Positions 36,643-58,310 of a DNA stretch of 64,000 nucleotides are shown here, one piece after another; the stretch's first letter is position 1; the number at the start of each line of letters is the position of its first letter. The notes beneath the pieces were generated by a model. The model was not told the DNA's origin, ran no database searches, and saw only the letters and a program-made list of their open reading frames with translations. The DNA comes from Ilumatobacteraceae bacterium (GTDB lineage Bacteria; Actinomycetota; Acidimicrobiia; Acidimicrobiales; Ilumatobacteraceae): positions 2,381,595-2,445,594 of the forward strand of contig JAWPMO010000001.1 of the NCBI GenBank assembly GCA_033344875.1, written 5' to 3'. The position numbers and the translations under genes were made by a program.

Positions 36643-37114
36643 CCGGCCTGAATCCGGTCGTCGGGCCCGGCAGACGGCGTTCGCGCTGTCGCCGCTGGTT
36701 CGGCAGGGCGCCAGAACGACGACGTCGCGCCGAAGGGCGTTGACCCGACGATCACAGTCGGAACTCGTCGCACCGACCGGTACAGCACGGGCGAAGAACG
36801 GGTCGAACCCATGACTTCGGTCCGTACCGAACCCGACCAGCAGCGTCTGGCTCCACTGGAACTCGGCCGAGAGCGCCGCCCGGCCTGACGCCGACTCTCG
36901 GCGCCGACCTCGCCGTGCCCTCCCCGGGTTCGCGTCCGCCCCGAGTCGACCCCGTCGCACGCTGGTCGGTGACGATGAAGCGAGCAGTTCGTTATAAGAC
37001 TATGATCATTGCAACATTACGCCGGACGTGCCGGGGCACGAGGGCGGACGGTCCAGACAATGCCGCGCGGGCGAACCACGGGTTCGTCAGCGAGTCGACG
37101 AGTGGGGATCTCGA
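36643..37114. other. Gene-poor spacer at the left edge of the catabolic island
   Basis: No convincing gene on either strand. It holds an 8-bp inverted repeat (GCCGAGAG 36866-36873 / CTCTCGGC 36895-36902) that could terminate glgC transcription. An AT-rich promoter-like tract around 36990-37020 carries motif A and TATAAG/TATGAT boxes for the molybdenum-hydroxylase gene. Confidence 0.6.
36999..37014. promoter_or_regulatory. Island motif A (minus strand TTGCAATGATCATAGT)
   Basis: One of five similar AT-rich sites at island promoters. Read on the plus strand it contains TATGAT, a good -10, about 100 nt before the first Mo-hydroxylase gene, so a bound repressor would cover the -10. Confidence 0.55.
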
Positions 37115-39484
37115 GTGAGAACGCAACCGGTCATCAGAAAAGAGGATCATCGGCTGCTGGTGGGCACGGCCGACTTCGTCGACGATCTCGGTGGCGACGA
37201 CACGCTCCACCTGGCGTTCGCACGCTCGATCAACGCCCACGCCCTGATCCGAGGAATCGACATCCAGTCGGCGAGCTCAGCCCCGGGAATCATCGGCGTG
37301 TATCTCGGCACGGACGTCGGTATCGCTCCCCAACGGGGATACCACTCACTCGATGCTGCGTTCGACCGCCCGCCGCTCGCCATCGAGCGTGTCCGATTCG
37401 TCGGTGAGCCCCTCGCCGCGGTCGTCGCACGATCACGGTCACTTGCGGCCGATGCCGCAGAGCTCGTCGAGGTCGACTACGAGTCACTCCCCGTCGTCGT
37501 CGATCAGGAGGTTGCGGCCGAGCCGGACGCACCGCAGTTGTTCCCTGATCATGGGACCAACGTCGCACTGGAGATGAGCTTCGGAGAACCCGACGAGATC
37601 TTCGACGACGTCGATCACGTCATCTCGGCGCGTTTCGTGAACCAGCGTCTCGCCTGTAGTCCGATGGAACCGAACTCGGTGTACGTGGAGCCGGGCGCCG
37701 ACGGTCGTCTGTCGGTCTGGCTGTCGACACAGCGTCCGCATGCGGCACGAGACGCGATCGCCCGAGCGCTCGAGCTGCCGTCGGAAGCAATCCGAGTGAT
37801 CGCGCCACACGTGGGCGGCGGTTTCGGAGGAAAGTTCGAGGTCTATCCGGAGCTGTTCGTCGCTGTCTGGGTCGCTCATCGACTCGGACGGTCGGTCAAG
37901 TACATCGAAGCGCGCACCGAGAACCTGATGAACATGCCGCATGGCCGAGGGCAGATCCAAGACGTCGAACTCGGACTGCACGACGACGGGACGTTCCACG
38001 GGCTGCGAGTCCGCGTCTTCGCCGACGCCGGGGCATACCCGTCGCTCGGCGCGCTCATTCCCAACGCGACACAACGTGTCCTGGCCGGACAGTACCGATT
38101 CGAACAGATTGCCTTCTCGGCCAAGAGTGTCGCCACCAACACGACGCCTGTGGGCGCGTACCGGGGTGCCGGGAGACCGGAAGCGATCACACTCCTCGAG
38201 CGAATCATCGACATCGCCGCCGACGAGCTGGGCGTCGACCCGATCGAACTTCGCCGCCGCAACATGTTCAGCGCCGACGAGTTCCCCGTCGTGACCGCCA
38301 CGGGAGCCGAATACGACACCGGGTCGTACGCCGAAGCGCTCGAGCATGCGCTCGAGACCGCCGGTTACGCCGACCTTCGATCGCGCCAAGCCGAGCAACG
38401 CCGTGCCGGGTCGAGCACCGTGCTCGGCATCGGAGTCGCGAACTGGGTCGACGCGACACCGTTCCAGCTCACACGGGAGTACGCGTCGCTCGCGCTCGAG
38501 GTCGTCGACGGTCGCGTGGAGGCACAGCTGGCCGTCGGGACTTCCGACCACGGCCAAGGCCACGACACGACGTTCTCGGGCGTCGTCGAGCGACTGCTCG
38601 GCATCTCCACCGACTGCGTGACCTACACCCGACCCGACACCGACGTGATCCCGCGAGGTGACGGCACCGGTAGCGCCCGCTCCGCGCAGGTGGGGGGTGG
38701 CGCGTCCCATGCCGCCGGCATGGAGATGATCCGACTCGCGCGCTTGATCGCCGGCGACCTGTTGGAAGCCGACCCCGAGGACGTGGCGTTCGATCCGACC
38801 GGCACGTTCGCGGTGCAAGGTGTTCCCTCACGAACTGTCGATCTCGTCGACGTCGTCGAGGCGGCCCGAACCCATGACGGCCTCTCGCCGACGACGCGCC
38901 AAGCTGTCGGCGGTGAGGGCCTTCGGGTCGCGATCGACTGGGAGCAGGTCGGCTCGACGTACCCGTCCGGTTCTCACGTGGCGGTCGTCGACGTCGATAC
39001 GCAGACCGGATCGGTCGCACTCCGACGCTTCATCGCCGTCGACGACTGCGGTGTGGCCATCGAGCCGACCCTGGTTCGGGGCCAACAGCACGGGGGGACG
39101 GTTCAAGGGATCAGCCAGGCCCTCTTCGAAGGGGTGCACTACGATCGGGACGGCAACCCGCTGACGTCGACGTTCATCGACTACTTGCTGCCCTCCGCCG
39201 CAGACGTGCCCTCCTTGGAAGTCGATCTGATCGAAACGCCCACCTTCATGAATCCCCTGGGCGCGAAGGGCATCGGTCAAGGCGGTGCGATCGGCGCGGC
39301 TGCGGCCGTCCAGAACGCCGTGGTCGATGCGGTGAGCCACCTCGGTGTCCGCCACATCGACATGCCGCTGTCCCCATTTCGGGTGTGGTCAGCGATCCAC
39401 GACGTTCAATCGGATCGATGTGGCGAGCAAACGAGCGCGGCGACGAAGCAGACGACCAACAAGGAGCAGTCATGGGCAGAGTAG
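37115..39484 (+). CDS. Molybdenum hydroxylase large subunit with Gln at the catalytic Glu position
   Basis: 789-aa xanthine-oxidase-family molybdopterin protein (XDH/CoxL-like). Mo-pterin motifs: [20 protein letters not shown] (form II type, not AYRCSFR), [13 protein letters not shown]. The C-terminal motif normally reading G-E-x-G is GIGQGGAIG here: codon CAA at 39278-39280 gives Gln722 where the family's base-catalytic Glu lies. No small [2Fe-2S] or medium FAD subunit gene is adjacent. GTG start after GGGGAT; the gene overlaps the following SDR by 13 nt. Substrate unknown; it may be impaired as a hydroxylase. Confidence 0.88.
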
Positions 39485-40218
39485 ACGGCAAAGTGGTACT
39501 GATCTCGGGTGGGGCGAGAGGACAAGGTGCCCACGAAGCGGCCCTGTTGATCGACGAAGGTGCCAGCGTGATGATCGGCGACATTCGACAAGAGGAGGGC
39601 AGCGCCGTCGCGACGCGTCTCGGAGACCGTTGCCGGTACGTTCCGCTCGACGTCACGGACGAATCCGACTGGGAGCGCGCCGTCGATGCGACGCTCGACA
39701 CCTGGGGACGACTGGACGTCCTCGTGAACAACGCCGGCATCGTCGACATGACGCCGATCGAGGACACGACGCGTGAGGCCTATGAACGAATCATCGCTGT
39801 CAACCAGACCGGAACGTTCCTCGGTATGCGCAGCGTCATCGATGCCATGAAAGACAACGGAGGCTCGATCATCAACATCTCGTCCACGGCCGGGCTGATG
39901 GGTGTCCCCGGAGTCATGGCCTACTCGGCCAGCAAGTGGGCGGTGCGTGGCATGACCAAGAGTGCGGCCCTCGAACTGGCGCGATACGGCATCCGGGTCA
40001 ACTCGGTACACCCCGGGGTGATCGACACCGACATGGTGCGCGACCCGAACGTGAACAGCCACGATGCGGATGCCGCCTGCGCGAAGTTTCCGATACCGAG
40101 GATCGGTCGCCCCGAAGAGTGCGCCAACATGGTGCTCTTCCTCGCGAGCGACGAGAGCAGCTACTCGACCGGGGCCGAGTTCGTTCTCGACGGCGGCTAC
40201 ACAGTGGGACGCTTCTGA
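39472..40218 (+). CDS. Short-chain dehydrogenase/reductase
   Basis: 248-aa SDR of the classical 3-hydroxysteroid/glucose-dehydrogenase-like type. SGGARGQGAHEA cofactor loop, GDIR after beta-2 (NAD preference), NNAGIVD, NISSTAGLMG, and catalytic YSASK. GGAG precedes the ATG. It begins inside the last codons of the molybdenum-hydroxylase gene, so the two are coupled. Likely oxidises a hydroxyl product in the island pathway. Confidence 0.9.
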   Translation: MGRVDGKVVLISGGARGQGAHEAALLIDEGASVMIGDIRQEEGSAVATRLGDRCRYVPLDVTDESDWERAVDATLDTWGRLDVLVNNAGIVDMTPIEDTTREAYERIIAVNQTGTFLGMRSVIDAMKDNGGSIINISSTAGLMGVPGVMAYSASKWAVRGMTKSAALELARYGIRVNSVHPGVIDTDMVRDPNVNSHDADAACAKFPIPRIGRPEECANMVLFLASDESSYSTGAEFVLDGGYTVGRF

Positions 40219-40352: not shown

Positions 40353-41291
40353 TCACGATTCGACCATGCCGAGCTGTCGCGCCCACTCGAGGTTCTGGCG
40401 AGCAGAGCCCACGTGGGCGAGGTGCACGATATGGCCCTCGCCGTCGTTCGGGTCGCCGTAGAGAATTGGTGCGCCGTCCCCGTTCTCCGCCTCCGTCGCG
40501 AGCCGGTCGAGATCTTGCCAGTAGCGGAGCTCGTCCTCGGTCGGTGAGAAGATCTCGTGCGTGAGGTCGAGGTGCTTCGGGGTCTCGAGCATCATGCCGT
40601 AGTAACCGAGGTTCCGGAGCGACACCGCCCAGCGGCGCATGCCGTCCAGATCGTCGACCTTTCCTCCCCACATGCCGCTGATGGGGTACCGGATCCCTGC
40701 GGCCCGGCAATCGAGCAGCGCCTTGGACCGGAGGTGGAACGTCTCGTCGGCCTCGGGCGTCCATCGATAACCCAGCGACTGGTGGATGTCGCCGAATCGA
40801 GAGATCGCACCACCCATGTAGGTGACTCTCGGCGATGCGGATGCGATGTCGAACGCGTTCCGAACCGACAGCGCGGTCTCGAGGATCGGGTAGATGAGCG
40901 TGGACCCCTGCTCTCTCCCGGTCTCGGCTTCTGCGCACGTCAGGATGGCGTCGGCTGCGATGACGTCGTTCGCTCCCTGGATCTTCGGGAGCAACACCCC
41001 GGCGATCGGTCCGCGCAGGACTGCCAGGAGGTCGCGCAGCATGAACCCGCTCGCCACCGACTGGACCCGAACGAACATCCGCGTCGGGACATCCGGTGCG
41101 AGGGAGGCCAGGTAGTCGCCGACGTGCGTGCGCACCGACGCCCGCTCGCTCTCGCTGAACGGGGTGCGCGGCTCTTCGATGTCGATCACCACGGCGTCGG
41201 ATCCCAGAGTATGTGCCTCCTCGACGGACGTCTCCAGATGCCCGGGGACGAACAGCAGGCTCCTGATCGGTGGCACGGACGGTTTGTTCAT
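40353..41291 (-). CDS. HpcH/HpaI (citrate lyase beta-like) CoA-ester lyase/aldolase
   Basis: 312-aa TIM-barrel aldolase of the HpcH/HpaI-CitE group. RSLLFVPGH at the start, DAVVIDIEEPRTPFSESERASVR, RVQSV, GVLLPKIQGANDV, and YPILETALSVRNAFDIA with the metal-ligand Glu. Such enzymes cleave 3-hydroxyacyl-CoA (malyl- or citramalyl-CoA type) or 4-hydroxy-2-oxo acids. The ATG overlaps the CoA-ligase stop and is preceded by AAGGAGAG, supporting sequential use: ligase then lyase. Confidence 0.86.
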   Translation of the reverse strand: MNKPSVPPIRSLLFVPGHLETSVEEAHTLGSDAVVIDIEEPRTPFSESERASVRTHVGDYLASLAPDVPTRMFVRVQSVASGFMLRDLLAVLRGPIAGVLLPKIQGANDVIAADAILTCAEAETGREQGSTLIYPILETALSVRNAFDIASASPRVTYMGGAISRFGDIHQSLGYRWTPEADETFHLRSKALLDCRAAGIRYPISGMWGGKVDDLDGMRRWAVSLRNLGYYGMMLETPKHLDLTHEIFSPTEDELRYWQDLDRLATEAENGDGAPILYGDPNDGEGHIVHLAHVGSARQNLEWARQLGMVES

Positions 41292-42892
41292 CGGTCTCTC
41301 CTTGGGGTTGTCTGATCGGTCTGCGCAGCGATGTCGCGCAGGACGAATTTCTGGACCTTGCCGCTCGCCGTTCGAGGCAACTCGTCGACGATCTCGACTC
41401 GCTCGGGGAACTTCTGGCGTGCGAGGCCGCGCTGCTCCAGGTACGCGACCAGCAACGGCAACGTGGGCACGGCATCGTTGGCCGCCACGACGAACGCGCA
41501 CGCACGTTCGCCCATCCGCTCGTCCGGCATGGCAACGATCGCGATGTCCTTCACCGCGGGATGGTCGAGGAGCACCTCCTCCACCTCCCGCACGCTGATG
41601 TTCTCACCACCACGGATGATGATGTCCTTCTTCCGCCCATGGATCGTGATCGCTCCGTCGGGACCGATGGCAGCGAGGTCGCCGGTTCGAACCCATCCGT
41701 CGGTCGTGAACGCGTCCGCGTTGAGAGATGCGTCGAGATACCCCAGGAACCGTTCAGGTCCACGTGCCTCGAGTTCACCCACGCCGTCGTCAGCATCGGT
41801 GATCCGGCAGGTGATCTCACCGATCGGCGGACCGTCGGTCTCGGCGGCGAGTTCGGCCGAGCCCTCCGGACCGGTACAGCTCACGGTGGGGAACTCCGAC
41901 GATCCATACACCCGGACGACCGTTGCGTCCAACACGTCACGCGCCCGTCTGACGAGATCGGGAGGAACGTCAGCGCCGCCGCACGCGAACGCCGTCAGTG
42001 GACAGTCGCCGGGATCGGATTCGTAGTTCGAGGTCAGACCTGCGAGAAACGGGGTCGCGCCCACGGTGAATCGGCACCGTTCGCGATCGATGAGGTCTCG
42101 CGCCGTGGACGCATCCCAGATGTCGAGCAACGCCGCCGTGGTCCCGAGCATGGGAGGCAGGAGCACGCCGTACAGGAACCCGGTGATGTGGGTCACCGGC
42201 GAACCCATGAACACGATCGATTCTCCATCGAGCCGGAACAGGTCGACGATCGACACGTTCTCGTGATGAAGAGTTCGGTGATCGTGCAGCACGCCCTTCG
42301 GGTCGGCCGTGGTCCCCGAGGTGTAGAGGAGCAGCGCGATGTCGTCAACCCGGCCATGGTCGGCGCCGTCCGGCTCCCCTGATGCGAGCAGTTCGTCGAA
42401 ACTCAGGTAGCCCGCCGGCAGTGGGCCTTCCGGTCGCACGACGATCACGGTCGGAGCGTGCTCATCACGACGGAGGACGCGCTCGCACATCGCGACATAG
42501 TCGAACCCGCGGAACCGATGGGGAATCAGCAGGACTCGCGGTCGAGCCTGGCCCACGATGAACGCCACCTCCCGGTCGCGGTAGATCGGCACCACGGGAT
42601 TCACTGCGGCGCCCGTCCGCAGCGTCGCGTGGATCGCGACGGTCGTCTCCCACCAGTTCGGGAGTTCCAGCGTCACGACGTCACCACGTGTGACGCCGAT
42701 CGAACGCAGCCCCCCGACGAGTCGTCGGACGTCGCTGTACAGCCCGGCGTTCGTGATACGACGAGTGCCCTCGACGAGGGCCGGGGCATCCGGTGCATGC
42801 GATGCTGCCGTGGCGACGTACGAACCGAGGGTTGGCCAGTCCCGCTCGAGCCGTAGCAGCGCCGCGTCGGGAGGGAAGGTGCCGCTCATCAT
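41288..42892 (-). CDS. AMP-dependent acyl-CoA ligase
   Basis: 534-aa adenylate-forming ligase. LLYTSGTTADPKGVLHDHRT (AMP-binding P-loop), VRVYGSSEFPT, WVRTGDLAAIGPDGAITIHGRKKDIIIRGGENIS and the catalytic Lys region PRTASGKVQKFVLRD. The first of two tandem ATGs is given; the second is one codon on. It presumably activates a carboxylate intermediate in the island pathway; cyclohexane-carboxylate or short-chain acids are possible. It is distinct from the ligase at 1.7 kb. Confidence 0.92.
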   Translation of the reverse strand: MMSGTFPPDAALLRLERDWPTLGSYVATAASHAPDAPALVEGTRRITNAGLYSDVRRLVGGLRSIGVTRGDVVTLELPNWWETTVAIHATLRTGAAVNPVVPIYRDREVAFIVGQARPRVLLIPHRFRGFDYVAMCERVLRRDEHAPTVIVVRPEGPLPAGYLSFDELLASGEPDGADHGRVDDIALLLYTSGTTADPKGVLHDHRTLHHENVSIVDLFRLDGESIVFMGSPVTHITGFLYGVLLPPMLGTTAALLDIWDASTARDLIDRERCRFTVGATPFLAGLTSNYESDPGDCPLTAFACGGADVPPDLVRRARDVLDATVVRVYGSSEFPTVSCTGPEGSAELAAETDGPPIGEITCRITDADDGVGELEARGPERFLGYLDASLNADAFTTDGWVRTGDLAAIGPDGAITIHGRKKDIIIRGGENISVREVEEVLLDHPAVKDIAIVAMPDERMGERACAFVVAANDAVPTLPLLVAYLEQRGLARQKFPERVEIVDELPRTASGKVQKFVLRDIAAQTDQTTPRRDR

Positions 42893-42927: not shown

Positions 42928-43848
42928 TCAGGCGAACGGCGTGACCAAGTGCTCGACGAGCCACGCGCGTCCCTGCTCCGCAGCGACCTCCAGACGGGAC
43001 TTGTTGCTGTACAGCGTCATATGGCTGGTTTCGTCGAAGATGAACAGACGCTTCTTCGCGGTCGACAACGAGTTGTAGACGCGGATCTCGTCGTCCCACA
43101 TCGTGATGTCGTCCTTCTCGGCCACGGTCATCAGCGTCGGGACGTTCAGGATCCGGGGGGCGAATCCTGCGGCGTCGTAGCTGAGCAGCAGCTCGACCGA
43201 CTCGACCGTGTTGAAGTGTTCGTGGTTCGGCGCCTCGGTCTCTTTCAGTTTCACGAACGCATCGGTGACCTCGGGGAATGGCCATGTCACGAGTTCGTCA
43301 TTCGGGTTGGTCGACGACATCGGCAGAACGCCGCCCTCGCCCGTCTCGAACCGCTTGCGACGATCTTCGGCAATGAGTTCCTGGAGTTCCCTGAACCGCA
43401 ACGATCCGTGGACCAGCCGCATGGTCGACAAACCGTCGATCACGGGAATGTTGGAGACGATGCACTTGACGCGCGGGTCGGTCGCCCCGACGACGAGCAC
43501 GTGCCCGCCACTGTACGAGATGCCCCAGATCCCGATCCGGGAGCTGTCGAGTTCGCTGCGGGTCTCGGCGTAGCTGATGGCGTTCTTGTAGTCCTCGATC
43601 TGCTTCCACGGGTCGAGATGTTGGCGCGGCGTCCCGTCGCTGTCGCCCATGTACCGGTAGTCGAAGACGAGTGCCGCCACGCCGGCCGCGGCGAACACCT
43701 TGGCGTAGTCGGGCTGGACGAGTTCTTTGACGTAGCACCATCCACCCGCCATGACGACGACCGGGAACGGGCCCTCCCCTTCGTCGGGAAGGTACAGGTG
43801 ACCTCGCAGGGTGGTGCCTTCGCTGCTGAACTCAACGTCTTGACGCAT
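42928..43848 (-). CDS. Alpha/beta hydrolase
   Basis: 306-aa hydrolase with a central beta-sheet pattern (GPFPVVVMAGGW), nucleophile elbow GISYSGG (Ser), acid region VAEKDDITM and His near the end (DETSHMTLYS). Resembles dienelactone hydrolase/acetyl-xylan esterase-like or polyketide-type hydrolases. ATG of MRQDVEF chosen: island motif B and a 103-nt gap lie upstream, so this gene probably starts its own transcript leading to the ligase and lyase. Substrate unknown. Confidence 0.85.
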   Translation of the reverse strand: MRQDVEFSSEGTTLRGHLYLPDEGEGPFPVVVMAGGWCYVKELVQPDYAKVFAAAGVAALVFDYRYMGDSDGTPRQHLDPWKQIEDYKNAISYAETRSELDSSRIGIWGISYSGGHVLVVGATDPRVKCIVSNIPVIDGLSTMRLVHGSLRFRELQELIAEDRRKRFETGEGGVLPMSSTNPNDELVTWPFPEVTDAFVKLKETEAPNHEHFNTVESVELLLSYDAAGFAPRILNVPTLMTVAEKDDITMWDDEIRVYNSLSTAKKRLFIFDETSHMTLYSNKSRLEVAAEQGRAWLVEHLVTPFA

Positions 43849-43941: not shown

Positions 43942-43954
43942 AATAGTATGATTA
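43942..43954. promoter_or_regulatory. Island motif B (AATAGTATGATTA)
   Basis: A divergent copy of the shared motif at the stop codon of the amidohydrolase, upstream of the hydrolase-ligase-lyase genes. On the minus strand it supplies TACTAT as a possible -10. Confidence 0.4.
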
Positions 43955-45480: not shown

Positions 45481-46242
45481 TCATCGGATGTCATCGACGA
45501 GCGTTCCGCCTCGGGCGAGGGCGCTCTCCTCGACCGGTGGCTGATCCCGCGCATAGGTCTGAACGGACGCCTCGGCCCTGAAGTTCAAGAATGCATATCC
45601 GTCCGGTCCACCGCTCAGCGCATACCTGACATCGCGCGGGATGAACAAGGCGGTACCAGCGCCGTATCGATGCGCGCCCATCGTCACACCACCCTCCAGG
45701 AGATAGATGACCTCGTGGGCCGAGTGACTGTGCGGAGGACCGTTCTTGTCCGCCTCGGCCTGGGCAACGTGCAGCAGTGTCAGTGGGCATCGTTCGTCGG
45801 ATGAATCACCGAACCAGCGGGCCTGCACACCCTCTCGGCTTCCCGACTCATAGCGGGCTCGCTCACCGATCACCAGGATCTCGGGAGCGACGTCGCCGCC
45901 GGAGTGTGGCTCGCCGCCTCCGAAATGAGCCAGCCGGGTCGCACCCACGGCGGTGGCGTCCAAGGTCTGACCTCCGCCGATCATCACCGCACCGTCGGGA
46001 GGGCATTCTCGACCGTCGTGGAGACGCAGTCCACCGCGCTCGACGAACACCGCGGCTCCAGGCGGACGCGCCACGATGGTCACCCGGGCAGAGTCGGCCA
46101 GGGTGGTGACGGCCAACCAGAGCCCCGAGGTCTCGGAGGTGAGCAGCCGACTCTCGATCACGGCCGACGCCGACGACCCCGGGACGGCATATTCCGCGGC
46201 GGGAGTCGCCTCGTCCACGCGCTGTGCTTCGAACTTCGCCAT
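45481..46242 (-). CDS. Cupin-domain protein
   Basis: 253 aa, apparently bicupin. The C-terminal cupin is clear: GPPHSHSAHEVIYLLEGGVTMGAHRYGAGTALFIPRDVRYAL with metal-binding His and Glu, while the N-terminal half is a degenerate cupin. ATG of MAKFEAQ chosen over a longer frame because GGGAGG precedes it. Could be a small dioxygenase, isomerase or sensor. First gene downstream of motif C. Confidence 0.75.
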   Translation of the reverse strand: MAKFEAQRVDEATPAAEYAVPGSSASAVIESRLLTSETSGLWLAVTTLADSARVTIVARPPGAAVFVERGGLRLHDGRECPPDGAVMIGGGQTLDATAVGATRLAHFGGGEPHSGGDVAPEILVIGERARYESGSREGVQARWFGDSSDERCPLTLLHVAQAEADKNGPPHSHSAHEVIYLLEGGVTMGAHRYGAGTALFIPRDVRYALSGGPDGYAFLNFRAEASVQTYARDQPPVEESALARGGTLVDDIR

Positions 46243-46270: not shown

Positions 46271-46298
46271 ACTATGTAAGCCTTGCAATGATTGTCAA
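46271..46298 (-). promoter_or_regulatory. Promoter of the cupin operon with island motif C
   Basis: On the minus strand TTGACA (46298-46293) and CATAGT (46276-46271) are 16 nt apart. Motif C (plus strand TTGCAATGATTGTCAA, 46283-46298) overlaps the -35 and spacer and has a flanking CCTTG...CAAGG inverted repeat and a CAAT-G-ATTG core. Confidence 0.65.
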
Positions 46299-46434: not shown

Positions 46435-46479
46435 AGCGCGAAACACTCGAGTCCGCGAACGCCGGACTCGTTTGTGGCG

Positions 46480-49042: not shown

Positions 49043-49054
49043 TTACAATGATTA
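49043..49054. promoter_or_regulatory. Island motif D (TTACAATGATTA)
   Basis: Exact 12-mer also present as motif E at 52612-52623. Lies 40 nt upstream of the D-aminoacylase start in the divergent region with the second Mo-hydroxylase. Confidence 0.65.
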
Positions 49055-49178: not shown

Positions 49179-51482
49179 GTGGAAGCCGAAGGGACACCAA
49201 GAGCAGGGCATCCGGGAGCCGCTGTGCGGCGACAGGAAGACCGTGAACTCCTCATCGGGAGCAGGGAGTTCATCGCCGACCTCGCCGTCGACGATGCGCT
49301 GGCCGTCGCCTTCGTGCGCTCAGATCTCGCCCACGGCACGATCGAATCGATCGATGTTTCGGCGGCGACTCAGGTCCCCGGCGTCAGAGCCGTGCTCACT
49401 GCATCCGACCTCGACGTGAGGGCGAGCCTGCCGCCGTTCACCGAGTCATTGGTCGATGACGAGTTCCGGCGACCGCCGATCGCCACCGACAAGGTCAGGT
49501 TCGTGGGCGAGATCGTCGCCATGGTCGTCGCCGACTCGTGGCCTGCGGCGCTCGACGCGGTCGACGTCGTCGAGGTGCGAATCACACCGCTCGAGATGGT
49601 GGTCAACGCCGACGACGCAACCCGCGCCGACGCACCGCTCCTCTTTCCGGGTCGACCCTCGAACGTCGCGATCCACAACGAGTTCAACGTCGACGCCGAG
49701 CCGGTGTCCGACGGGATGCGCAGTCTGTCGTTCTCGACCACGAATCACCGGATGGCGGCTGCCCCGATGGAGGGACTCGCGATCGTGTCGATCCCCGGGC
49801 CCGGGCCATCCCTCACCGTCCACGTCTCGACGCAGGTTCCCCATTGGACGCGCGACCATCTCGCCAAAGAGCTCGACCTGCCGACCGATGCGGTGCGAGT
49901 CGTCGCTCCTGCGGTGGGTGGCGGCTTCGGCTCGAAGACCGCCTGGGAGGTCGAGTACCTGCTCGTCGCAGCCGCTGCCCGCCTGCTCGACAGAACATTG
50001 CGGTACATCCAGACCCGTTCGGAGAACCTCATGACCGCGCACGCACGGGGTCAACGCCACGACGTCACGCTCGCGTTCGACGACGACGGCGTGGTGCACT
50101 CCCTCGACGTCCGGGCGTTCTGCGACTGCGGCGCCTACCCAACGGTCGGAGCACTGCTGCCGGCGATGACCCAGCTGATGAGCGTCGGGGTGTACCGCAT
50201 CCCGCGGGTGACCTGGGTCCGAGACTCGATCGTGACCAACACCGCCCCCACCGGCGCGTTTCGCGGCGCCGGACGGCCGGAGGCGACCGCGATGATCGAA
50301 CGCGCGCTCGACCTCGTCGCCGGCGACCTCGGCATCGATCCCATCGAGGCGCGACGTCGCAACCTGATCCCGAACGACGCGTTCCCGTACACGACGCCGA
50401 CCGGGGCAACGTACGACTCCGGGGACTACGGCACATGCCTCGACCTCGTCGCCGAACTCGGCGATTACCAAGGTCTCCGCGCCGAGCAACGTCGCCGTCG
50501 ACTCACCGATGGGACCAGCCATCTCGGCCTCGGGCTTTCCTGCTACGTCGAGGTCACCGCCGGACAGGGAGGCACCGAGTTCGCCGAGATTCGGATCACG
50601 GCCGAGGGCCGACTCGACGTCGCGGTCGGGACGATGTCGCACGGCCAGGGGCACGCGACGACCTACACCCAACTCGTGTCGTCCGAACTCGACGTCCCCG
50701 CGTCGATGATCCGGATCGTGCAGGGAGACACCGCGCTCGTCGAATCGGGACACGGCACCCAGGGTTCGCGATCGATCCAGCTCGGTGGCAGCTCGGTCCA
50801 CGACGCCGCCCAGCGATTCTGGACCAAGGTGTCGACGCTGGTCGCCGAACAGTTGGAGACGAGCCCGGATGACATCGTGTCGTTCGGCGAATCAGGCGTC
50901 GGCGTTCGCGGCGTTCCGCACTCAACTCTCGCATGGCCCGAAATTCATGCCCTCTCGTCCGGTCGGGACGGGACCACGAGCGGGCTCCCGACACGCGGTG
51001 AGGTGACCCAGGTCGGCGGGTCGTTCCCGTTCGGGGCCCATCTGGCGGTGGCCGAGGTAGATGAGGAGACCGGTCGGGTCGACCTGGTCGGGTACTACGC
51101 CGTCGACGACTGCGGCACGATCATCAACCCGCTCTTGGCCGAGGGCCAGTTACACGGGGGGATCGTCTCGGGCATTGCGCAGGCGCTCTTCGAGTCGGTC
51201 GAATATGACGACAACGGCACCCCGTTGACGACGTCGTTCGCGACGTACGCCAAGCCGTCTGCGGCTGACGTGCCGAGCATCCACCTGCGCAGCTCGGTCA
51301 CGCCCTCCCCGCTCAACCCGCTGGGCGCCAAGGGCATCGGAGAGTCGGGCACGGTGGGCGCCACCCCTGCCGTCCAGAACGCGGTGATCGACGCCGTCGC
51401 GCACCTGGGTGTCCGTCACATCGACATGCCACTGTCGCCGGAAACGGTCTGGAGCGCGATCCGAAGGGCACGATCCACATGA
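49179..51482 (+). CDS. Molybdenum hydroxylase large subunit (XDH/CoxL-like)
   Basis: 767-aa paralogue of the protein at 37.1 kb. [38 protein letters not shown] and a normal catalytic GIGESGTVG (Glu722, the same position as Gln722 in the paralogue). No small or medium subunit gene is nearby. GTG start, GGAAGG upstream. The alcohol dehydrogenase ATG overlaps its stop (ATGA). Likely hydroxylates an aldehyde or heterocycle using a Mo-pterin cofactor. Confidence 0.9.
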   Translation: MEAEGTPRAGHPGAAVRRQEDRELLIGSREFIADLAVDDALAVAFVRSDLAHGTIESIDVSAATQVPGVRAVLTASDLDVRASLPPFTESLVDDEFRRPPIATDKVRFVGEIVAMVVADSWPAALDAVDVVEVRITPLEMVVNADDATRADAPLLFPGRPSNVAIHNEFNVDAEPVSDGMRSLSFSTTNHRMAAAPMEGLAIVSIPGPGPSLTVHVSTQVPHWTRDHLAKELDLPTDAVRVVAPAVGGGFGSKTAWEVEYLLVAAAARLLDRTLRYIQTRSENLMTAHARGQRHDVTLAFDDDGVVHSLDVRAFCDCGAYPTVGALLPAMTQLMSVGVYRIPRVTWVRDSIVTNTAPTGAFRGAGRPEATAMIERALDLVAGDLGIDPIEARRRNLIPNDAFPYTTPTGATYDSGDYGTCLDLVAELGDYQGLRAEQRRRRLTDGTSHLGLGLSCYVEVTAGQGGTEFAEIRITAEGRLDVAVGTMSHGQGHATTYTQLVSSELDVPASMIRIVQGDTALVESGHGTQGSRSIQLGGSSVHDAAQRFWTKVSTLVAEQLETSPDDIVSFGESGVGVRGVPHSTLAWPEIHALSSGRDGTTSGLPTRGEVTQVGGSFPFGAHLAVAEVDEETGRVDLVGYYAVDDCGTIINPLLAEGQLHGGIVSGIAQALFESVEYDDNGTPLTTSFATYAKPSAADVPSIHLRSSVTPSPLNPLGAKGIGESGTVGATPAVQNAVIDAVAHLGVRHIDMPLSPETVWSAIRRARST

Positions 51483-52594
51483 CCACCGCCAGAGCCGCCG
51501 TCCTGCGTGAAGCAGGGTCACCCCTCACGCTCGAGACGATCCGCATCGACCCACCGAAGGACGGCGAGGTCATCGTCGAGATGGGTGCCGTCGGGCTGTG
51601 CGGCTCGGACCGATTCGTGCTCGATGGCCACTACCCGGTCGAGCCCCCAGCGGTCTGTGGTCACGAAGGGGCCGGCAAGGTCCTCGAGGTCGGTCCCGGC
51701 GTCACCGGACTGACGCCGGGCGACCACGTCGTGCAGATCTTCATCGGCCCCTGCGGCGATTGTGGGCCGTGTCGTCGGGGCCTCAAGACGTTCTGTCGGA
51801 CGGGGATGCACCCGTCCGGACGCCTCCGCGACGGGACGTTCAGAATGTTCGCCGGGGACGAGCCGATCGGCACCTATCTGGGTCTCGGCAGTTTCTCGAC
51901 CACCACGGTCACTCCGGCGCGGCACCTCGTCAAGGTTCCTGCCGACGTGCCGTGGGAGATCGCCGCACTCGTCTCGTGCGGGGTCTCGACCGGCGTTGGC
52001 GCAGCAGTGAACGTCGCTCGTGTCCGGCCGGGCGACTCGGTGCTCGTCGTCGGGCTCGGCGGGGTCGGCGCATCGGCCGTGATGGGCGCCGTGCTCGCCG
52101 GCGCCGCGCGCGTCGTGGTGAGCGAGGTCAGCCCCGACAAGCTGGCGATGGCCACGACCTTCGGCGCGACCGACACGGTCGATGTGACGCAGGTCGATCT
52201 GGTCGAAGCGATCGCCGACCTCACCGACGGCAACGGTGTCGACGCCGTGCTCCTGACTCCCGACCGAGTTCGGGCAGCGCACCACATCGACGCCGTCAAC
52301 TGCCTCGGTCCTGGCGGCGTGGTCGTCCAGGTCGGCGGAACGGCGGTTGACCTCGACGTGATCCCGGTCTCACCGAACGCGCTGCTTTCCCAGCAGAAGT
52401 CGATCACCGGCACCGTCATCGGAGGGCCGGATCCGGCGCGTGACGTGCGGCGCTGGATCGAACTGTATCGAGCAGGCCGACTGCCGATCGATCGGCTGAT
52501 CACCCGCAGGTACGCATTCGATGACATCAACGTGGGGTTCGACGACCTGAAGGCCGGCACCAATGTGCGCGGCGTCATTTCATTCGCGCCTTGA
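51479..52594 (+). CDS. Zinc-dependent alcohol dehydrogenase (MDR)
   Basis: 371-aa medium-chain dehydrogenase. Catalytic-zinc site CGSDRFVLDGHYP and GHEGAGKV, structural-zinc CGDCGPCRRGLKTFC, and NAD-binding VLVVGLGGVGASAVMGAVLAG. Resembles the class III/arylalcohol branch. Start overlaps the Mo-hydroxylase stop. Likely supplies or removes the aldehyde/ketone partner of that enzyme. Confidence 0.9.
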   Translation: MTTARAAVLREAGSPLTLETIRIDPPKDGEVIVEMGAVGLCGSDRFVLDGHYPVEPPAVCGHEGAGKVLEVGPGVTGLTPGDHVVQIFIGPCGDCGPCRRGLKTFCRTGMHPSGRLRDGTFRMFAGDEPIGTYLGLGSFSTTTVTPARHLVKVPADVPWEIAALVSCGVSTGVGAAVNVARVRPGDSVLVVGLGGVGASAVMGAVLAGAARVVVSEVSPDKLAMATTFGATDTVDVTQVDLVEAIADLTDGNGVDAVLLTPDRVRAAHHIDAVNCLGPGGVVVQVGGTAVDLDVIPVSPNALLSQQKSITGTVIGGPDPARDVRRWIELYRAGRLPIDRLITRRYAFDDINVGFDDLKAGTNVRGVISFAP

Positions 52595-52623
52595 CACGTT
52601 CCCCCCATACATTACAATGATTA
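52591..52623 (+). promoter_or_regulatory. Promoter with island motif E
   Basis: TTGACA (52591-52596), 16-nt spacer, TACAAT (52613-52618). Motif E, TTACAATGATTA (52612-52623), covers the -10. The leader to the GTG at 52680 is about 55 nt and carries AGGAGA. Confidence 0.7.
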
Positions 52624-52679: not shown

Positions 52680-53825
52680 GTGACCATGATCACCGAGGCG
52701 CAGGACGCCCAGGCCGGGCGAGAGCGCCAGCACCATCCGTACCACTTGATCTCGGCAGACAGTCACGTCAACGAGCCGGCCGACCTCTGGGTCAGTCGTG
52801 TGGCCGCCAAGTTCCGGGATCGCGTGCCGCGTGTCGAACGGTTCGAGCAGGGCGATGCGTGGGTGATCGAGGGGCTCGACGGGCCGATGCCGATCGGTCT
52901 GAACGCGTGTGCCGGGCAAGACCCGCGCCTGCGCCAGAACTGGGTTCGCTTCGACGAGATCCGCACCGGTGGGTGGGATCCGGCTGCACGGGTCCAGGAG
53001 ATCGAGGTGGCGGGTGTCGACGCAGAGGTGCTGTACCCGACGCCGCGCCTCTCGCACGCCATCTTCGCGACGACCGAGCCTGACTTCCACCTCGCCCAGG
53101 TCCAGGCGTACAACGACTGGCTGCACGAGTACGCGTCCTACGATCTCCGGAAATTCCGGGCCCTGCCGATCCTGCCCAATCGGGGCGTCGACCAAGCGTT
53201 GGCCGAGATCGAGCGAGTCGGGGGTCGGCCATCGACCGGTGGCTTCGTGATCGGGGCGTACCCCTCCGGCGAGCTCACGCCACAGCCCGAGGACGACCCC
53301 GTCTTCGCTGCGCTCGAGGAGCGGAACATCACCCTCAACATCCATGTCTCCCTCAAGAACACGATGCCCGTTCAGAAGAACCTGCTCGCGCTGCCGGCAG
53401 CCGGTCGGTTCACCGGAGCGACGACACACCTCATCGATCTGATCTTCTCGGGCGTGTTCGACCGGTTCCCTGCGCTGCAACTCGTGTTCGCCGAGGTGGA
53501 CTGCGGTTGGCTCCCCTACTTCAAGGAGCAGTTGGACGACGGGTTCAGTCGCTATCGGTTCCGGTTCGACCTGGCCAAGCTCCCGAGCGAATACATCCAG
53601 GAGCACGTCCACTTCAGCTGGGTGACCGACACGTTCGGCATCGACAACCGTCACCACATCGGCGTCGAGCGCATGCTCTGGTCGAGCGACTACCCACACG
53701 GCAGCTCGAACTACCCGGACGCATGGTCCCCGACCATGGCTGCCATGGCCGGCGTTCCGCTCGCTGAACGGAATCTGATGCTCAAGGGGAACGCACAGCG
53801 CCTCTACAAGTTCCCCAACCCGTGA
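52680..53825 (+). CDS. Amidohydrolase family 2 protein
   Basis: 381-aa metal-dependent hydrolase/decarboxylase. HLISADSHVNEPADLW at the N-terminus, GVDAEVLYPTP, RKFRALPILP, HVSLKNTMP, and MLWSSDYPHGSSNYPDAW with the conserved Asp and His near the C-terminus. GTG chosen over the ATG two codons on because AGGAGA sits at good spacing to it. Transcribed from the motif E promoter. Confidence 0.87.
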   Translation: MTMITEAQDAQAGRERQHHPYHLISADSHVNEPADLWVSRVAAKFRDRVPRVERFEQGDAWVIEGLDGPMPIGLNACAGQDPRLRQNWVRFDEIRTGGWDPAARVQEIEVAGVDAEVLYPTPRLSHAIFATTEPDFHLAQVQAYNDWLHEYASYDLRKFRALPILPNRGVDQALAEIERVGGRPSTGGFVIGAYPSGELTPQPEDDPVFAALEERNITLNIHVSLKNTMPVQKNLLALPAAGRFTGATTHLIDLIFSGVFDRFPALQLVFAEVDCGWLPYFKEQLDDGFSRYRFRFDLAKLPSEYIQEHVHFSWVTDTFGIDNRHHIGVERMLWSSDYPHGSSNYPDAWSPTMAAMAGVPLAERNLMLKGNAQRLYKFPNP

Positions 53826-53937: not shown

Positions 53938-54732
53938 ATGACGGACGACTCCGGGACCGGCGGCGAGTTCGACGGCCTGACGATGGTCGTCACCGGCGGC
54001 AACGGAGGAATCGGGCTCGCTCTCGCGGAAGCAGTCGGCTCGGCCGGGGCCAGCGTCGCGATCTGGGGTCGCAATCCGACCAAGAACACAGCTGCGCTCG
54101 CACATCTCGAGGCACTCGGTATCGAAGCGCTCGCGGTCTCGTGCGACGTGAGTGACGAGGAGCAGGTCACCGCCGCCATGGCGGCGACCGTCTCGCGCTT
54201 CGGGCGGGTCGATTCCCTGTTCGCCAATGCCGGCATCGGCGGCCGGGAGGTCCCGTTCGTCGACCTGCCGATGGAGGAATGGCGATCGGTCATGGCGGTC
54301 GACCTCGACGGCGTGTTCCTCACGTTTCGCGAGGGTGCGCGTCAGATGGTGGCCCAGGGAGACGGCGGTGCGCTGGTCGCTGTCTCATCGATCGTGTCGA
54401 GATTCGGCGCACCGCGCAAAGCTGCCTACGGAGCAGCGAAGCCGGCCGTCGAGGGCCTCGTTCGTTCGCTCGCGGTCGAGTTGGCCGGCGCAGGGATCCG
54501 ATGCAATGCCCTTGCACCCGGATGGACCGACACCGACATGGTTGCACCGTCGGGAAGCTTCGGAGGATCCGCGTACGACCGCTTCCGTGAGGCGACGTTG
54601 CGGCGGACACCGGTCCGGCGGTGGGGTCAGCCGGCCGACCTCCACGCGGCCGCCCGATTCCTCGCAGACCCGCGCGCCACCTTCCACACCGGCGACGTGA
54701 TCGTCGTCGACGGCGGCTACTCGATCGCTTGA
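53938..54732 (+). CDS. Short-chain dehydrogenase/reductase
   Basis: 264-aa SDR. TGGNGGIGLALA cofactor loop, WGRN after beta-2 (Arg suggests NADP is possible), ANAGIGG, and catalytic YGAAK. The shorter ATG (MTDDSGTGG) is given; an ATG 24 nt upstream in frame is an alternative. Follows the nested hairpin. Confidence 0.85.
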   Translation: MTDDSGTGGEFDGLTMVVTGGNGGIGLALAEAVGSAGASVAIWGRNPTKNTAALAHLEALGIEALAVSCDVSDEEQVTAAMAATVSRFGRVDSLFANAGIGGREVPFVDLPMEEWRSVMAVDLDGVFLTFREGARQMVAQGDGGALVAVSSIVSRFGAPRKAAYGAAKPAVEGLVRSLAVELAGAGIRCNALAPGWTDTDMVAPSGSFGGSAYDRFREATLRRTPVRRWGQPADLHAAARFLADPRATFHTGDVIVVDGGYSIA

Positions 54733-54777: not shown

Positions 54778-55689
54778 TCAACCGACGTCGAGGCTCACGA
54801 CCGAGAACTCCCGAGAGCTCTTGGTGGCGGATTCGATCGGCTCTCCACACACCGGCGTCGGGACCACGCGCCCGGCGGCGACCGTGGCGACCGCCCGGCT
54901 GTTGCCGTGCGGACCATGCCACGACATCGACACGTGCCAACGCGCGTCACCGTCGACCTCGCTGTGCACGTCGTCGAGCACGCAGTCGACCCACGACGTC
55001 CCGACATGCAGGGCGATCTCCCGCTCGGCAGATTGCTCCCACGGGTCGAGCGCGTTCGAACCGCGGTAGTACCGACGAGCGTCGGCATCGAGCCACGATC
55101 CCTCGATGACCGCGCCGAGCACGGTCTCGTCCATGTGCGCCCACATGCGGCCGTCGTGGGGCGTGAGGCATGTCGGCGCGAATCGGTGGCCACCGAGATG
55201 GCTGCTCCGTCGGATGCGAACGGCGGGCCACTTCGTCTGCGCGACCATCTGTAACTTCACGCCGAGCTTCCCGCAGCACCGGTCCCGCCGTCCATGGCCG
55301 CAGACCAACACGTCGAACGGCGCTGGGTCGCCGGACTCGAACTCGTCCTCGTTCAGGAGACGCGGCAGGACGTCGACCAGAGACGAGCGGTCGACGAGGT
55401 GATCGGTTCCCACGAGTTCGGACAACGAGCGCCGACGGTAGATCGTGACCAAAGCGCGTTCCGGATCTTGCACGGTGACCTCGGTCGCCAGAACCGTGGT
55501 GAACCGACCGAGTTCCGAGGCGAACACCGGCATGGTCTTGATGTCCGCCGGCCACGGACCGGGAGTCTCCACGAGGACGATCGTGTCCGCTCGACCGGCG
55601 GAACCGACGGGATCGACGTGATTCGTCTGCGTCCAGTCGGAGCAGCGCACCGGCATCCCTCCGTCAGGCCGGCACTCGATCGTCGTCAT
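54778..55689 (-). CDS. Sucrase/ferredoxin-like [2Fe-2S] protein
   Basis: 303-aa thioredoxin-like ferredoxin family protein (sucrase/ferredoxin-like). The Cys/His cluster region VCGHGRRDRCCGKLG, followed by SSHLGGHRFAPT, matches that family. Might transfer electrons for the island oxidoreductases, for example the molybdenum hydroxylases that lack their own Fe-S subunit; this is speculative. It is last in a minus-strand trio and its start overlaps the DapA-like stop by 4 nt. Confidence 0.82.
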   Translation of the reverse strand: MTTIECRPDGGMPVRCSDWTQTNHVDPVGSAGRADTIVLVETPGPWPADIKTMPVFASELGRFTTVLATEVTVQDPERALVTIYRRRSLSELVGTDHLVDRSSLVDVLPRLLNEDEFESGDPAPFDVLVCGHGRRDRCCGKLGVKLQMVAQTKWPAVRIRRSSHLGGHRFAPTCLTPHDGRMWAHMDETVLGAVIEGSWLDADARRYYRGSNALDPWEQSAEREIALHVGTSWVDCVLDDVHSEVDGDARWHVSMSWHGPHGNSRAVATVAAGRVVPTPVCGEPIESATKSSREFSVVSLDVG

Positions 55690-56615
55690 TCGCCAGCGCC
55701 ACGCAAGCCGGACAACTCGTCGATGTCGAGAGCGCCGAGGATCGCTTCGACCTCACTGCATTCGTCGTCCCCGAGTTCGAGGAACGGCGGCCGCAGGTGG
55801 TGTCCTGGCAGACCGAGCACCCTCATCACCGTCTTCAGGTAGCGCATGCTTCCTCCCGGCCACCGATTGGCGCTGAAGAAGCGCAGCACGTCACGAAATG
55901 CTGCCTGCGAGGCTCGCAGGTCACCGTTCGCGTGTGAACGCACGACGTCGACACACGTCGCCGGAATGATGTTGCCGTCCGTACTGAGGAAGCCCTGGCC
56001 GCCGAGCGCGAGGATCGTCAACGCCTGCATCGGTCCCCCGACGTGAACGTCGCAGCGGTCGTCGACCACGTCAACGAGCGCTGACACGTACCTGACGTCA
56101 GGATTGGTGACGTTGATGCCGCGAATCCTGTCGCCGTAGTCGACGAGCAGCCGATCGAGTACGGGAAGCGGCACGACGTACCCGTTGTAGATGTGGCTCG
56201 ACACGACGCAGTCGATCGTCGAACCGTCGAGAATCGTGCGGAAGTAGCACTCGAGCTCGCGTTCGGTCGGGATGTTCGCATGACCGCTGTCGACGCAGTA
56301 GAGCTGCATGGCCTGCATCCCCGTGGCCTCGGCGATCCGAACCAGTTCGAGGTAGTCGAGCGCGGTGTGTGTCTCGACGCCCATCGCCCTGACGCTCACG
56401 TCTGCTCCGACCGCATCGACCGCAGCCCCGTACAGCGCTTCGGTCTCGTCGGCGTCGAGGGTGTACCCCTCGCCCGGCGACGAGCTTCCGACGTAGACGC
56501 CCATGCCGGACGCGGCAAGCCGTACCAGGTGGGACCGCCACGCTTCCAGATCGAGGCGGCCGGCAGCGTCGAACGGCGTCACGGTGCAGGTGAAGGTCGA
56601 CGGTGCACGCGTCAT
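55686..56615 (-). CDS. Dihydrodipicolinate synthase family protein lacking the Schiff-base Lys
   Basis: 309-aa DapA/NanA-like TIM barrel. FTCTVTPFDAAGRLD, GSSSPGEGYTL in the GTTGE position, and Tyr143 (SHIYNGYV) match. The usual GIKEA motif reads RGINVTNP here, so the Schiff-base lysine is Asn168 (AAC codon). It should therefore not work as a normal lysine-dependent aldolase; a metal- or acid-base-catalysed reaction, or a non-enzymatic role, is possible. Coupled to AhpD-like and ferredoxin-like genes. Confidence 0.82.
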   Translation of the reverse strand: MTRAPSTFTCTVTPFDAAGRLDLEAWRSHLVRLAASGMGVYVGSSSPGEGYTLDADETEALYGAAVDAVGADVSVRAMGVETHTALDYLELVRIAEATGMQAMQLYCVDSGHANIPTERELECYFRTILDGSTIDCVVSSHIYNGYVVPLPVLDRLLVDYGDRIRGINVTNPDVRYVSALVDVVDDRCDVHVGGPMQALTILALGGQGFLSTDGNIIPATCVDVVRSHANGDLRASQAAFRDVLRFFSANRWPGGSMRYLKTVMRVLGLPGHHLRPPFLELGDDECSEVEAILGALDIDELSGLRGAGE

Positions 56616-57223
56616 GGTGCTGCGTCGGAGTCGCCGTGGTAGTGCCGCGACCCGTCCCACCCGCGTTCGGAGAGCAGCGCAGATGCGAACTTGTAGACCG
56701 GTTCCTCGAGATCGGTCTCCATCGTGTCGTTCCATCGGTTCCAGAAGCCGAACATCGACACCGTGATCACCATCTCGGCGATCTGGGGGTCGTCGAAATG
56801 CTGACGCAGGGCGTCGAAGTGCGATCCGTCCACCGCACTCGGTTGTTGGACCATCGCCAGCGCCAACCGGAGTGCCGCACGCTCGGCCTCGGTGAACAGT
56901 TCGGACGTCTCGAATTCCCAGATGGCGCGAAGCTTCTCGTCGGACACACCGAAGCTCGACGCGGTCTTTGCCGTGTGGGCCTCGCAGAAGCGGCAGACGA
57001 CAGCGCTGCTCGACAGATGGCTCATCAACACCTTGAGGCTCGGGTCGACGCCGTTCATCTTCCTGAGCGCAGCAGACACCTCGGTCATGGCCCGAAGAAA
57101 GTCCGGCTGATGTCCGAGGGTCAGATAGGCAGTGGGCAGATAGCCGGCCAACGACTCGAGGGTCTGGAAGAAGCCTTCGAACTCGGCCAGTTCCTCACGC
57201 GGGCGAGGCGCCAGGTTGCTCAT
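56612..57223 (-). CDS. AhpD-like carboxymuconolactone decarboxylase/peroxidase-related protein
   Basis: 203-aa helical protein. The redox centre CRFCEAH (CxxCxxH) is that of AhpD-like peroxidases/alkylhydroperoxidases. The C-terminal part (FGFWNRWNDTMETDLE) is typical of the peroxidase-related subgroup. ATG of MSNLAPRPREELAEF chosen; a longer frame is possible. Probably removes peroxides formed during island catabolism. Confidence 0.8.
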   Translation of the reverse strand: MSNLAPRPREELAEFEGFFQTLESLAGYLPTAYLTLGHQPDFLRAMTEVSAALRKMNGVDPSLKVLMSHLSSSAVVCRFCEAHTAKTASSFGVSDEKLRAIWEFETSELFTEAERAALRLALAMVQQPSAVDGSHFDALRQHFDDPQIAEMVITVSMFGFWNRWNDTMETDLEEPVYKFASALLSERGWDGSRHYHGDSDAAP

Positions 57224-57461
57224 GAGCTCACCGCCTCGATCAGAGGGAGGGTCGACGGCTGGGCTGCAGGCGATGTCATCGCAGTGGTCCAGGACTGCGT
57301 AGGTCATCGAGCTGCTGACGCTCTACGAGACCCCGCTCGCGGCTTGTTCTGGTCATGTCACCCTGCTTCCCCGGTGCGGACGGAAGCTCCATCATCACAC
57401 CATTAATTTGATACTTGCAAACTTATAGTAGATTGAAGAAGGCTGCAAGGAGGACGTCAAC

Positions 57462-58259
57462 ATGGCCCAGCTCACCAACGAGATCGCACTCGTGACCGGC
57501 GCAACAGGCGGACTCGGACGCATCATCGCGCTGACGCTCGCCCGCCGGGGTGCCGCCGTCGCCGTACACGGACGTGACGACGAGCGCGGGGCACGTCTGG
57601 TGGCGGACATTCGACACTCCGGAGGAACGGCAGACTTCTTCGCTGCCGACCTCACGTCATCGGACGCGGCGACCAGGATGGTCGACGCTGTCGTGAGCAC
57701 ATTCGGCCGACTGTCGATCCTCGTCAACAGCGCCTACGCGAGTGATGACATGGCTGACGACGCTTCGGTCGGCGAGATCACCGACGAAGCGTGGGACAAC
57801 ATCCTCACGGGCAACCTGACGACCAGCCTCTGGGTCACCCGAGCGGCACTGACGACGATGACCGAACGGGGTCGAGGCTCGATCGTCAACATCAGCGCAC
57901 GCGCCGGCGTGGTCGGCACCCCCGGCATGGCTGCGCACGCAGCATCGAAGGGCGCGATCAACGCGCTGACCAGGTCGATCGCGGTCGACTACGCAGACAG
58001 AGGAATTCGGTGCAACGCGGTGGTTCCCGGCCACATTCTTCACGAGGTCAGGGACGCCAACGCCTCGGCCGAACGGATCGCATCGCTCGAAGCCATGCAA
58101 CTGACCCGGCTGGCGACACCAGAAGACGTCGCCAACAGCGTCGCATTCCTCGCGGGACCCGACGCGGAGGTGCTGACCGGTGTGCTTCTGCCTGTCGACG
58201 GGGGAAGCACTGCTGCACGCGCCGCAGTCGTCGGAGGTCCCGATCCGCGCTGCTCGTAG
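57462..58259 (+). CDS. SDR-family protein with His in place of the catalytic Tyr
   Basis: 265 aa. TGATGGLGR loop and HGRDD after beta-2 are normal, but NNAG is NSAY and the YxxxK active site reads H159-AAS-K163 (CAC codon), in a context (MAAHAASKGAINAL) that otherwise aligns exactly. It likely lost standard SDR chemistry or uses His. AAGGAGG precedes the ATG, one of the strongest RBSs here. Its AT-rich upstream region (TTGATACTTGCAAACTTATAG) differs from motifs A-E. Confidence 0.8.
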   Translation: MAQLTNEIALVTGATGGLGRIIALTLARRGAAVAVHGRDDERGARLVADIRHSGGTADFFAADLTSSDAATRMVDAVVSTFGRLSILVNSAYASDDMADDASVGEITDEAWDNILTGNLTTSLWVTRAALTTMTERGRGSIVNISARAGVVGTPGMAAHAASKGAINALTRSIAVDYADRGIRCNAVVPGHILHEVRDANASAERIASLEAMQLTRLATPEDVANSVAFLAGPDAEVLTGVLLPVDGGSTAARAAVVGGPDPRCS

Positions 58260-58310
58260 GACTCGCTCGTCGTCGATGCCGACAACGCTCGATCGCGTAT
58301 CCGGCTCGGC

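Follow-up and report, generated by a model that had tools for sequence, protein, structure and literature searches.

How a set of catabolic genes came to stand in the middle of a glycogen locus is the question raised by the Ilumatobacteraceae window analyzed here, a stretch of 64,000 nucleotides (64 kb) that is part of one 4.97-Mb contig. The initial annotation of this window had described an island of about 21 kb separating glgB and glgC from glgA and glgX. That gene order proved to be right, with the glg genes now identified by Pfam and NCBIfam (Table 1), and the splitting of the glycogen locus by a catabolic block is confirmed as real. The block occupies ∼21.7 kb (36602-58310) at the convergent junction between glgC and the glgX-glgA pair. 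With a probability of roughly 0.8, we regard it as a self-regulated catabolic module inserted at this 3′-3′ junction; the interpretation first given to the locus is supported, with a correction on origin. An insertion at this point, with the 3′ end of glgC on one side and that of the glgX-glgA pair on the other, would have broken no gene.

Seventeen genes were called between glgC and glgA. They encode two molybdenum (Mo)-hydroxylase large subunits (XDH1 and XDH2), three short-chain dehydrogenases (SDR1, SDR2 and SDR3), one zinc alcohol dehydrogenase, three amidohydrolases, a CitE-type lyase, an acyl-CoA ligase, an α/β hydrolase, a cupin-like protein, a sucrase/ferredoxin-like protein, a DHDPS-family lyase, a carboxymuconolactone-decarboxylase-like protein, and one GntR/FCD regulator. 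In Pfam, each of the 17 matches a family of enzymes or regulators, in the case of the cupin-like protein only below cut-off, and no glycogen-metabolism gene was found among them by Pfam, in agreement with the earlier statement that only catabolic genes and their own regulator lie here. Because the gene calls were made with an ad hoc codon-model script, the starts are approximate, and very small genes may have been overlooked.

Base composition and codon use distinguish the island from its flanks. The G + C content at third codon positions (GC3) averages 0.816 over the 17 island genes and 0.897 over the 32 flank genes of the window, and it jumps at both ends, from 0.91 in glgC to 0.79 on the left and from 0.77 to 0.90 in glgA on the right. 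A low-GC3 class is favored by the codon model for all 17 island genes, for 3 of the 32 flank genes, and for 36 of 249 core genes. The synonymous codon-use distance of the island is 0.482 to the core and 0.193 to a region at 3.45-3.51 Mb of the same chromosome, values to be read against 0.174 (core) and 0.197 (low-GC3 class) for random 17-gene samples compared with their own class. GC3 is 0.823 at 3.448-3.512 Mb and 0.870 (S.D. 0.044) in a genome sample of 292 genes from 20 evenly spaced 20-kb stretches, three of which are also low (0.820, 0.813, and 0.785 at 3.10, 3.35, and 3.60 Mb, respectively). Foreign as it is to its surroundings, the island is not foreign to its chromosome. AT-rich promoters had been remarked on as well; when the 60-mers of the window are ranked by A + T content, the first five (starts 57392, 49111, 52575, 43911, and 36970) all fall inside the island.

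Three AT-rich intergenic regions of the island have the 12-base pattern TTRCAATGATYA in common. It was derived from these three sites, which are the only exact copies genome-wide; this lack of other exact sites is a real test, unlike the recovery of the three. At one mismatch, six more places were found, one of them before I07. Two others, at 3.46 and 3.51 Mb in the second region described below, supplied the palindrome ATYATTGCAATRAT. A search for the palindrome with up to two mismatches returned nine places versus none with the reversed control: two in the island, four at 3.449-3.511 Mb, and one directly before an acyl-CoA-ligase-like gene at 3.159 Mb, among others. The product of I08 resembles GntR/FCD regulators in having GntR helix-turn-helix and FCD domains above cut-off. 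Judged from sequence, it may bind a palindrome near ATCATTGCAATGAT at four sites before island transcription units, a putative regulator-operator pairing. Classical FadR-like GntR members have an operator of the TGGTNNNACCA type, from which the proposed operator ATCATTGCAATGAT differs.

The region at 3.45-3.51 Mb is a second catabolic region of ∼64 kb (L104-L107; G000:C1 3448219-3511999) with low GC3, the shared palindrome, and three GntR paralogs of I08, which are 50, 43, and 41% identical over the alignment and have a similar helix-turn-helix. Paralogs of I03, I06, I07, I08, and I12 are found there at 31-60% identity, including a 60% CitE paralog, cupin paralogs, and amidohydrolase paralogs.

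Among 60 relatives searched for GlgC, 25 gave a strong match (E below 1e-80; 56-64% identity). The glg gene order had been predicted to be contiguous in relatives, and glgA or glgX indeed directly adjoins glgC in 17 of these 25; the arrangement of the window is not conserved in all relatives, and arrangements vary. GlgA abuts GlgC in 14, of which 12 are head to tail, one is convergent (G052), and one is divergent (G019, in which GlgA is more distant, at 38-41%). In the congeners G001, G004, and G005, GlgX abuts GlgC convergently, with no insert and no GlgA between them. A 39% GlgA match lies on another contig of G005, and G001 and G004 gave weak matches only. Neighboring GlgA and GlgX were searched for at E 1e-10 or 1e-8, and a 26% GlgA-like match stands beside GlgC in G050.

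The distribution of individual island genes is patchy. I06 has no match in any of nine congeners (E 1e-20), and I09 is found at ≥60% identity in 2 of 199 other family genomes, G400 and G380, which belong to another genus; congeners match it at 39% at best. Across the order, matches to I06 were found in 42 of 298 genomes (E 1e-30) and to I14 in 57 of 248 (E 1e-10), own genome included in both counts and with no other family genome among them; the I06 sample was evidently without G400 and G380, which carry I06.

The initial annotation had also noted a 30-bp tandem duplication at the left edge and no integrase or attachment (att) site. The duplication is exact (36583-36612 and 36613-36642), its first copy covering the 3′ end of glgC with the stop codon. 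It repeats the glgC 3′ end and is an unproven att scar, because the second copy lies beside the first and not at the far edge. Another perfect tandem repeat (46397-46436; 19 bp, 2.1 copies) lies between the cupin-like and GntR genes. The absence of an integrase or att site stands: similarity between the edges, sought as att-like or inverted repeats, gave two local alignment scores of 20 each, short of the 95% levels for shuffled sequence (27 and 26). A phage origin was also considered and set aside, the PHROGs matches being weak and limited to regulator and hydrolase (five frames). The block resembles metabolic genomic islands in being an accessory catabolic block with a composition step at both ends, a patchy distribution, and intact flanking core genes; it differs from them in having no integrase, tRNA target, or flanking repeats and in a codon use that matches another region of its own genome. 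With no mobile-element feature, own mobility machinery, or defined ends, a self-moving island is not supported.

Several observations weigh against the insertion of a module at this junction. No integrase, transposase, or conjugation gene is among the Pfam matches of the 17 island genes, no tRNA gene was found in the window, and no flanking direct repeats or att-like repeats were found at the island boundaries. Many genomic islands lack integrase, transposase, and conjugation genes, so their absence weakens mainly the claim of a mobile element. G001, G004, and G005 also lack glgA at the corresponding place, convergent and abutting glgC-glgA was seen only in G052, of another family, and in six of the 25 relatives (G002, G003, G007, G009, G050, and G059) neither glgA nor glgX was found beside glgC in the fetched stretches, apart from the 26% match in G050. 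Gene loss or missing contigs are possible in the nine congeners, because their GlgC identity is 58-64% and only four combine ≥90% completeness with ≤5% contamination. Homologs of I09 at greater distance are common, being present in 161 of the 200 family genomes (own included; E ≤ 1e-60). I06 and I09 are both present in G400 and G380, of another genus in the family, and a second, intact copy of the module was not found. With 14% of sampled genes below the island mean GC3, the composition is not extreme genome-wide. The island lies at a codon-use distance of 0.345 from three other low-GC3 stretches and so resembles the 3.45-3.51 Mb region, not low-GC3 DNA generally; nor is the low-GC3 area an unbroken zone, because the stretch at 3.17-3.19 Mb, between low-GC3 stretches, is core-like. 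As for the candidate operators, recovery of the founding sites is by construction and no test, because the patterns were taken from them. The reversed control of the 12-base search gave one match versus nine in total, and matches at two mismatches within the window, at 25044 and 52681 (the start of I12), are not island promoter sites. Palindrome-like sites also occur at 1969339 and 2207381.

The source of the inserted module would be either the low-GC3 catabolic regions of the chromosome itself or the same outside gene pool that filled those regions. Horizontal acquisition from another lineage comes not far short of an even chance. Other Acidimicrobiales families carry I06 at 53-63% identity, and G400 and G380 carry it at 57-59%, mostly with I09 within 10 kb; among seven places viewed with their flanks, I09 (≥57%) lies within 10 kb of I06 (≥55%) at six (G236, G298, G038, G400, G380, and locus L154) but not in G160. 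The lack of I06 in congeners and of other family members among the I14 matches points the same way. However, no single donor emerges. The nearest genomes share 3 of the 17 island genes at ≥50%, and the neighbors at the I06-I09 places otherwise differ from the island. Around this pair, GC3 runs from 0.82 to 0.93 in G400 and from 0.90 to 0.99 in G236, for the most part higher than in the island, and nothing close was found on plasmids, where the best matches of the two proteins searched were 39% (I06) and 46% (I09). Relocation within the chromosome, in which a native low-GC3 catabolic piece would have reached the glg locus without further horizontal transfer, is possible, at clearly less than even odds. 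The codon use, regulator family, and palindrome that the island shares with the 3.45-3.51 Mb region and the paralogs of five island genes there all argue for it, but those paralogs are so divergent that no recent copy remains, I06 is without a congener match and I09 has only distant ones, and both XDH branches are long.

It is highly improbable that the intervening genes are ancestral and were lost in relatives without any insertion having occurred. A split glg pair is not unique to this genome, because the pair is also split on one contig in 2 of the 25 relatives: in G047, of another family, convergent glgC and glgA are separated by 3.6 kb with amidase-like and LLM-like genes (named by eye), and in G035 the pair is separated by 13.2 kb, a block between glgA and glgC (L256:5365-18460) of high GC3 with, by eye, sugar-transport and galactokinase-like/galactose-use genes. 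None of these intervening genes matches an island gene at the thresholds used, however, and the composition steps at both edges and the 17 contiguous relatives speak against an old arrangement; the split in G035, of another genus, looks like an independent one. Accretion of several separate insertions at the junction is improbable as well. In its favor, I06, I09, and I02 reappear as a group in outside genomes where the remainder of the block is lacking, and the genomes matching I14 form a different set, but the codon use of all 17 genes is of the low-GC3 class and the shared site stands before units spread over ∼16 kb. Insertion of one module, the explanation preferred here, could have proceeded by routes such as a repair-linked event or one mediated by an insertion sequence that was later lost.

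Table 1. Genes of the island and its glg flanks, and proposed operator sites, in window coordinates
Feature	Position	Strand	Remarks
glgB, 1,4-alpha-glucan branching enzyme, left flank	33470..35320	-	NCBIfam equivalog above cut-off
glgC, ADP-glucose pyrophosphorylase, last gene before island	35390..36601	+	Pfam NTP_transferase and GlmU-like hexapeptide (longer frame 34763-36601)
I01 XDH1, form II CoxL-like Mo-hydroxylase large subunit	37115..39484	+	AYRGAGR motif; start codon by eye
I02 SDR1, short-chain dehydrogenase	39472..40218	+	NCBIfam ChcB1 best, below cut-off; start by eye
I03 CitE/HpcH-type lyase	40353..41291	-	60% identical paralog at 3.464 Mb
I04 acyl-CoA ligase	41288..42892	-	nearest model cyclohexanecarboxylate-CoA ligase, below cut-off
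I05 alpha/beta hydrolase	42928..43848	-	profile match
I06 amidohydrolase (Amidohydro_2)	43952..45427	-	Pfam
I07 cupin-like protein	45481..46242	-	Pfam cupin matches below cut-off; paralogs in second region
I08 GntR-family regulator with FCD domain	46480..47211	-	GntR and FCD domains above cut-off; three paralogs with similar helix-turn-helix
I09 D-aminoacylase-type amidohydrolase (Amidohydro_3)	47357..49003	-	Pfam
I10 XDH2, form II CoxL-like large subunit	49179..51482	+	catalytic Glu present
I11 zinc alcohol dehydrogenase	51479..52594	+	NDMA-dependent type, below cut-off
I12 amidohydrolase (Amidohydro_2)	52680..53825	+	profile match
I13 SDR2, short-chain dehydrogenase	53938..54732	+	profile match
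I14 sucrase/ferredoxin-like protein	54778..55650	-	≤44% identical elsewhere in order sample
I15 DHDPS-family aldolase/lyase	55686..56504	-	frame open to 56735
I16 carboxymuconolactone decarboxylase/AhpD-like protein	56612..57223	-	profile match
I17 SDR3, short-chain dehydrogenase, last island gene	57462..58259	+	profile match
glgA, glycogen synthase, first gene after island	58311..59681	-	Pfam/NCBIfam; GC3 0.90, core-like
glgX, glycogen debranching enzyme	59684..61813	-	NCBIfam; 2 bp upstream of glgA, same strand
Proposed operator site upstream of I01-I02	37003..37014	-	exact 12-base pattern TTRCAATGATYA
Proposed operator site upstream of I07	46283..46294	+	1 mismatch to TTRCAATGATYA
Proposed operator site between divergent I09 and I10	49043..49054	+	exact 12-base pattern
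Proposed operator site upstream of I12	52612..52623	+	exact 12-base pattern

The gene content suggests a role in the use of an organic acid, which would proceed by hydroxylation (Mo-hydroxylase), dehydrogenation (short-chain and alcohol dehydrogenases), CoA activation, C-C cleavage, and hydrolysis. No named pathway could be assigned, the island proteins falling below the curated NCBIfam cut-offs among the matches listed (at most 25 per protein); the sole model passed among these was a general short-chain dehydrogenase subfamily model, for SDR1. I04 scores best against the model for cyclohexanecarboxylate-CoA ligase and SDR1 against that for trans-4-hydroxycyclohexanecarboxylate dehydrogenase, both well below cut-off, and an alicyclic or aromatic acid is our guess for the substrate.

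XDH1 and XDH2 both carry the AYRGAGR-type active-site loop, a motif that one published account (PMC7645674) gives as the definition of form II CoxL, described there with the gene order coxSLM. The island subunits resemble form II CoxL in their AYRGAGR or AFRGAGR motif and C-terminal GAKGIG[E/Q] motif and in having the CoxL of solved CO dehydrogenases as best PDB match. They differ in being without neighboring coxS or coxM, no Fe-S or FAD subunit match being present in the window (E 1e-4), and XDH1 differs further in having Gln for Glu. This Gln (codon CAA, 39278-39280) stands where the GxGE motif has its catalytic Glu, which XDH2 keeps; all 43 aligned rows, among which XDH2 is included and some genes appear twice, have Glu here. 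It may be a real change or a sequencing error. Several altered enzymes had been claimed for the island, which is borne out for one case, XDH1, in a comparison that covered the Mo-hydroxylase large subunits. In a tree of 24 rows, the XDH1 and XDH2 branches measure 1.08 and 1.14 (median 0.34) and have no congener partner, and of the four form II large subunits encoded outside the island, three are paired with genes of the congener G001.

The genome holds six members of the XDH clade (E ≤ 1e-180), two of them in the island, and no Fe-S or FAD subunit match was found in stretches of 17 to 64 kb around each. At the same threshold, the order has a clade member in 65 of 148 genomes, own included. An Fe-S subunit match lies within 1.5 kb in 1 of the 11 top matches from other genomes (L235-L245), that of G073, and none was found in five longer stretches from G001, G019, and G021. 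The genome gave four FAD-subunit matches, three above cut-off and one below, and five Fe-S matches. Two FAD/Fe-S sets accompany large subunits that are only ∼30% similar, one Fe-S match stands by a 29% large subunit without FAD, and one by no large subunit found. The remaining coxS-coxM pair, at 1.6785-1.6798 Mb, has MoxR-like, CoxE, XdhC, MobA-like, and CoxG genes within 8 kb and no large subunit in the 18-kb stretch around it (set L264:6476-15470, G000:C1 about 1678475-1687469). In G073, of another family, a clade member lies directly beside a coxS that is 70% identical to the coxS at 1.678 Mb, with a MoxR-like gene and, by eye, an enolase-like gene adjoining; an enolase-like gene is also near the pair of the present genome. 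No coxM was seen in the 5.2-kb G073 locus. A further orphan form II large subunit (L257:5351-7627; G000:C1 about 2448128-2450404) lies ∼2.5 kb past the right end of the window and groups with the coxS-adjacent copy of G073. Pieces matching only residues 605-750 of an XDH-type large subunit at 56-65% identity (L153:18299-18737) are remnant-like.

A tentative and rather unlikely reading suggested by these sequences is that the coxS-coxM pair and its maturation-type genes form a hub, shared by the six dispersed form II large subunits as interchangeable spokes. Within that reading, XDH1, given its Gln, would serve either as a decoy or as a spoke whose chemistry is altered. A literature search found no report on hub sharing, this island, or the palindrome, although such reports may exist.

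Genomic islands themselves are a known kind, and the parts that merit a second look here are the orphan Mo-hydroxylase subunits and the putative two-locus regulon. The locus presents a catabolic module without a mobility gene at a harmless 3′-3′ junction inside a core carbohydrate locus, and this island is tied to a regulator family and a palindrome that also occur in a second chromosomal region. If the hub were real, a single electron-transfer pair would serve orphan CoxL-like large subunits that act as exchangeable catalytic parts.

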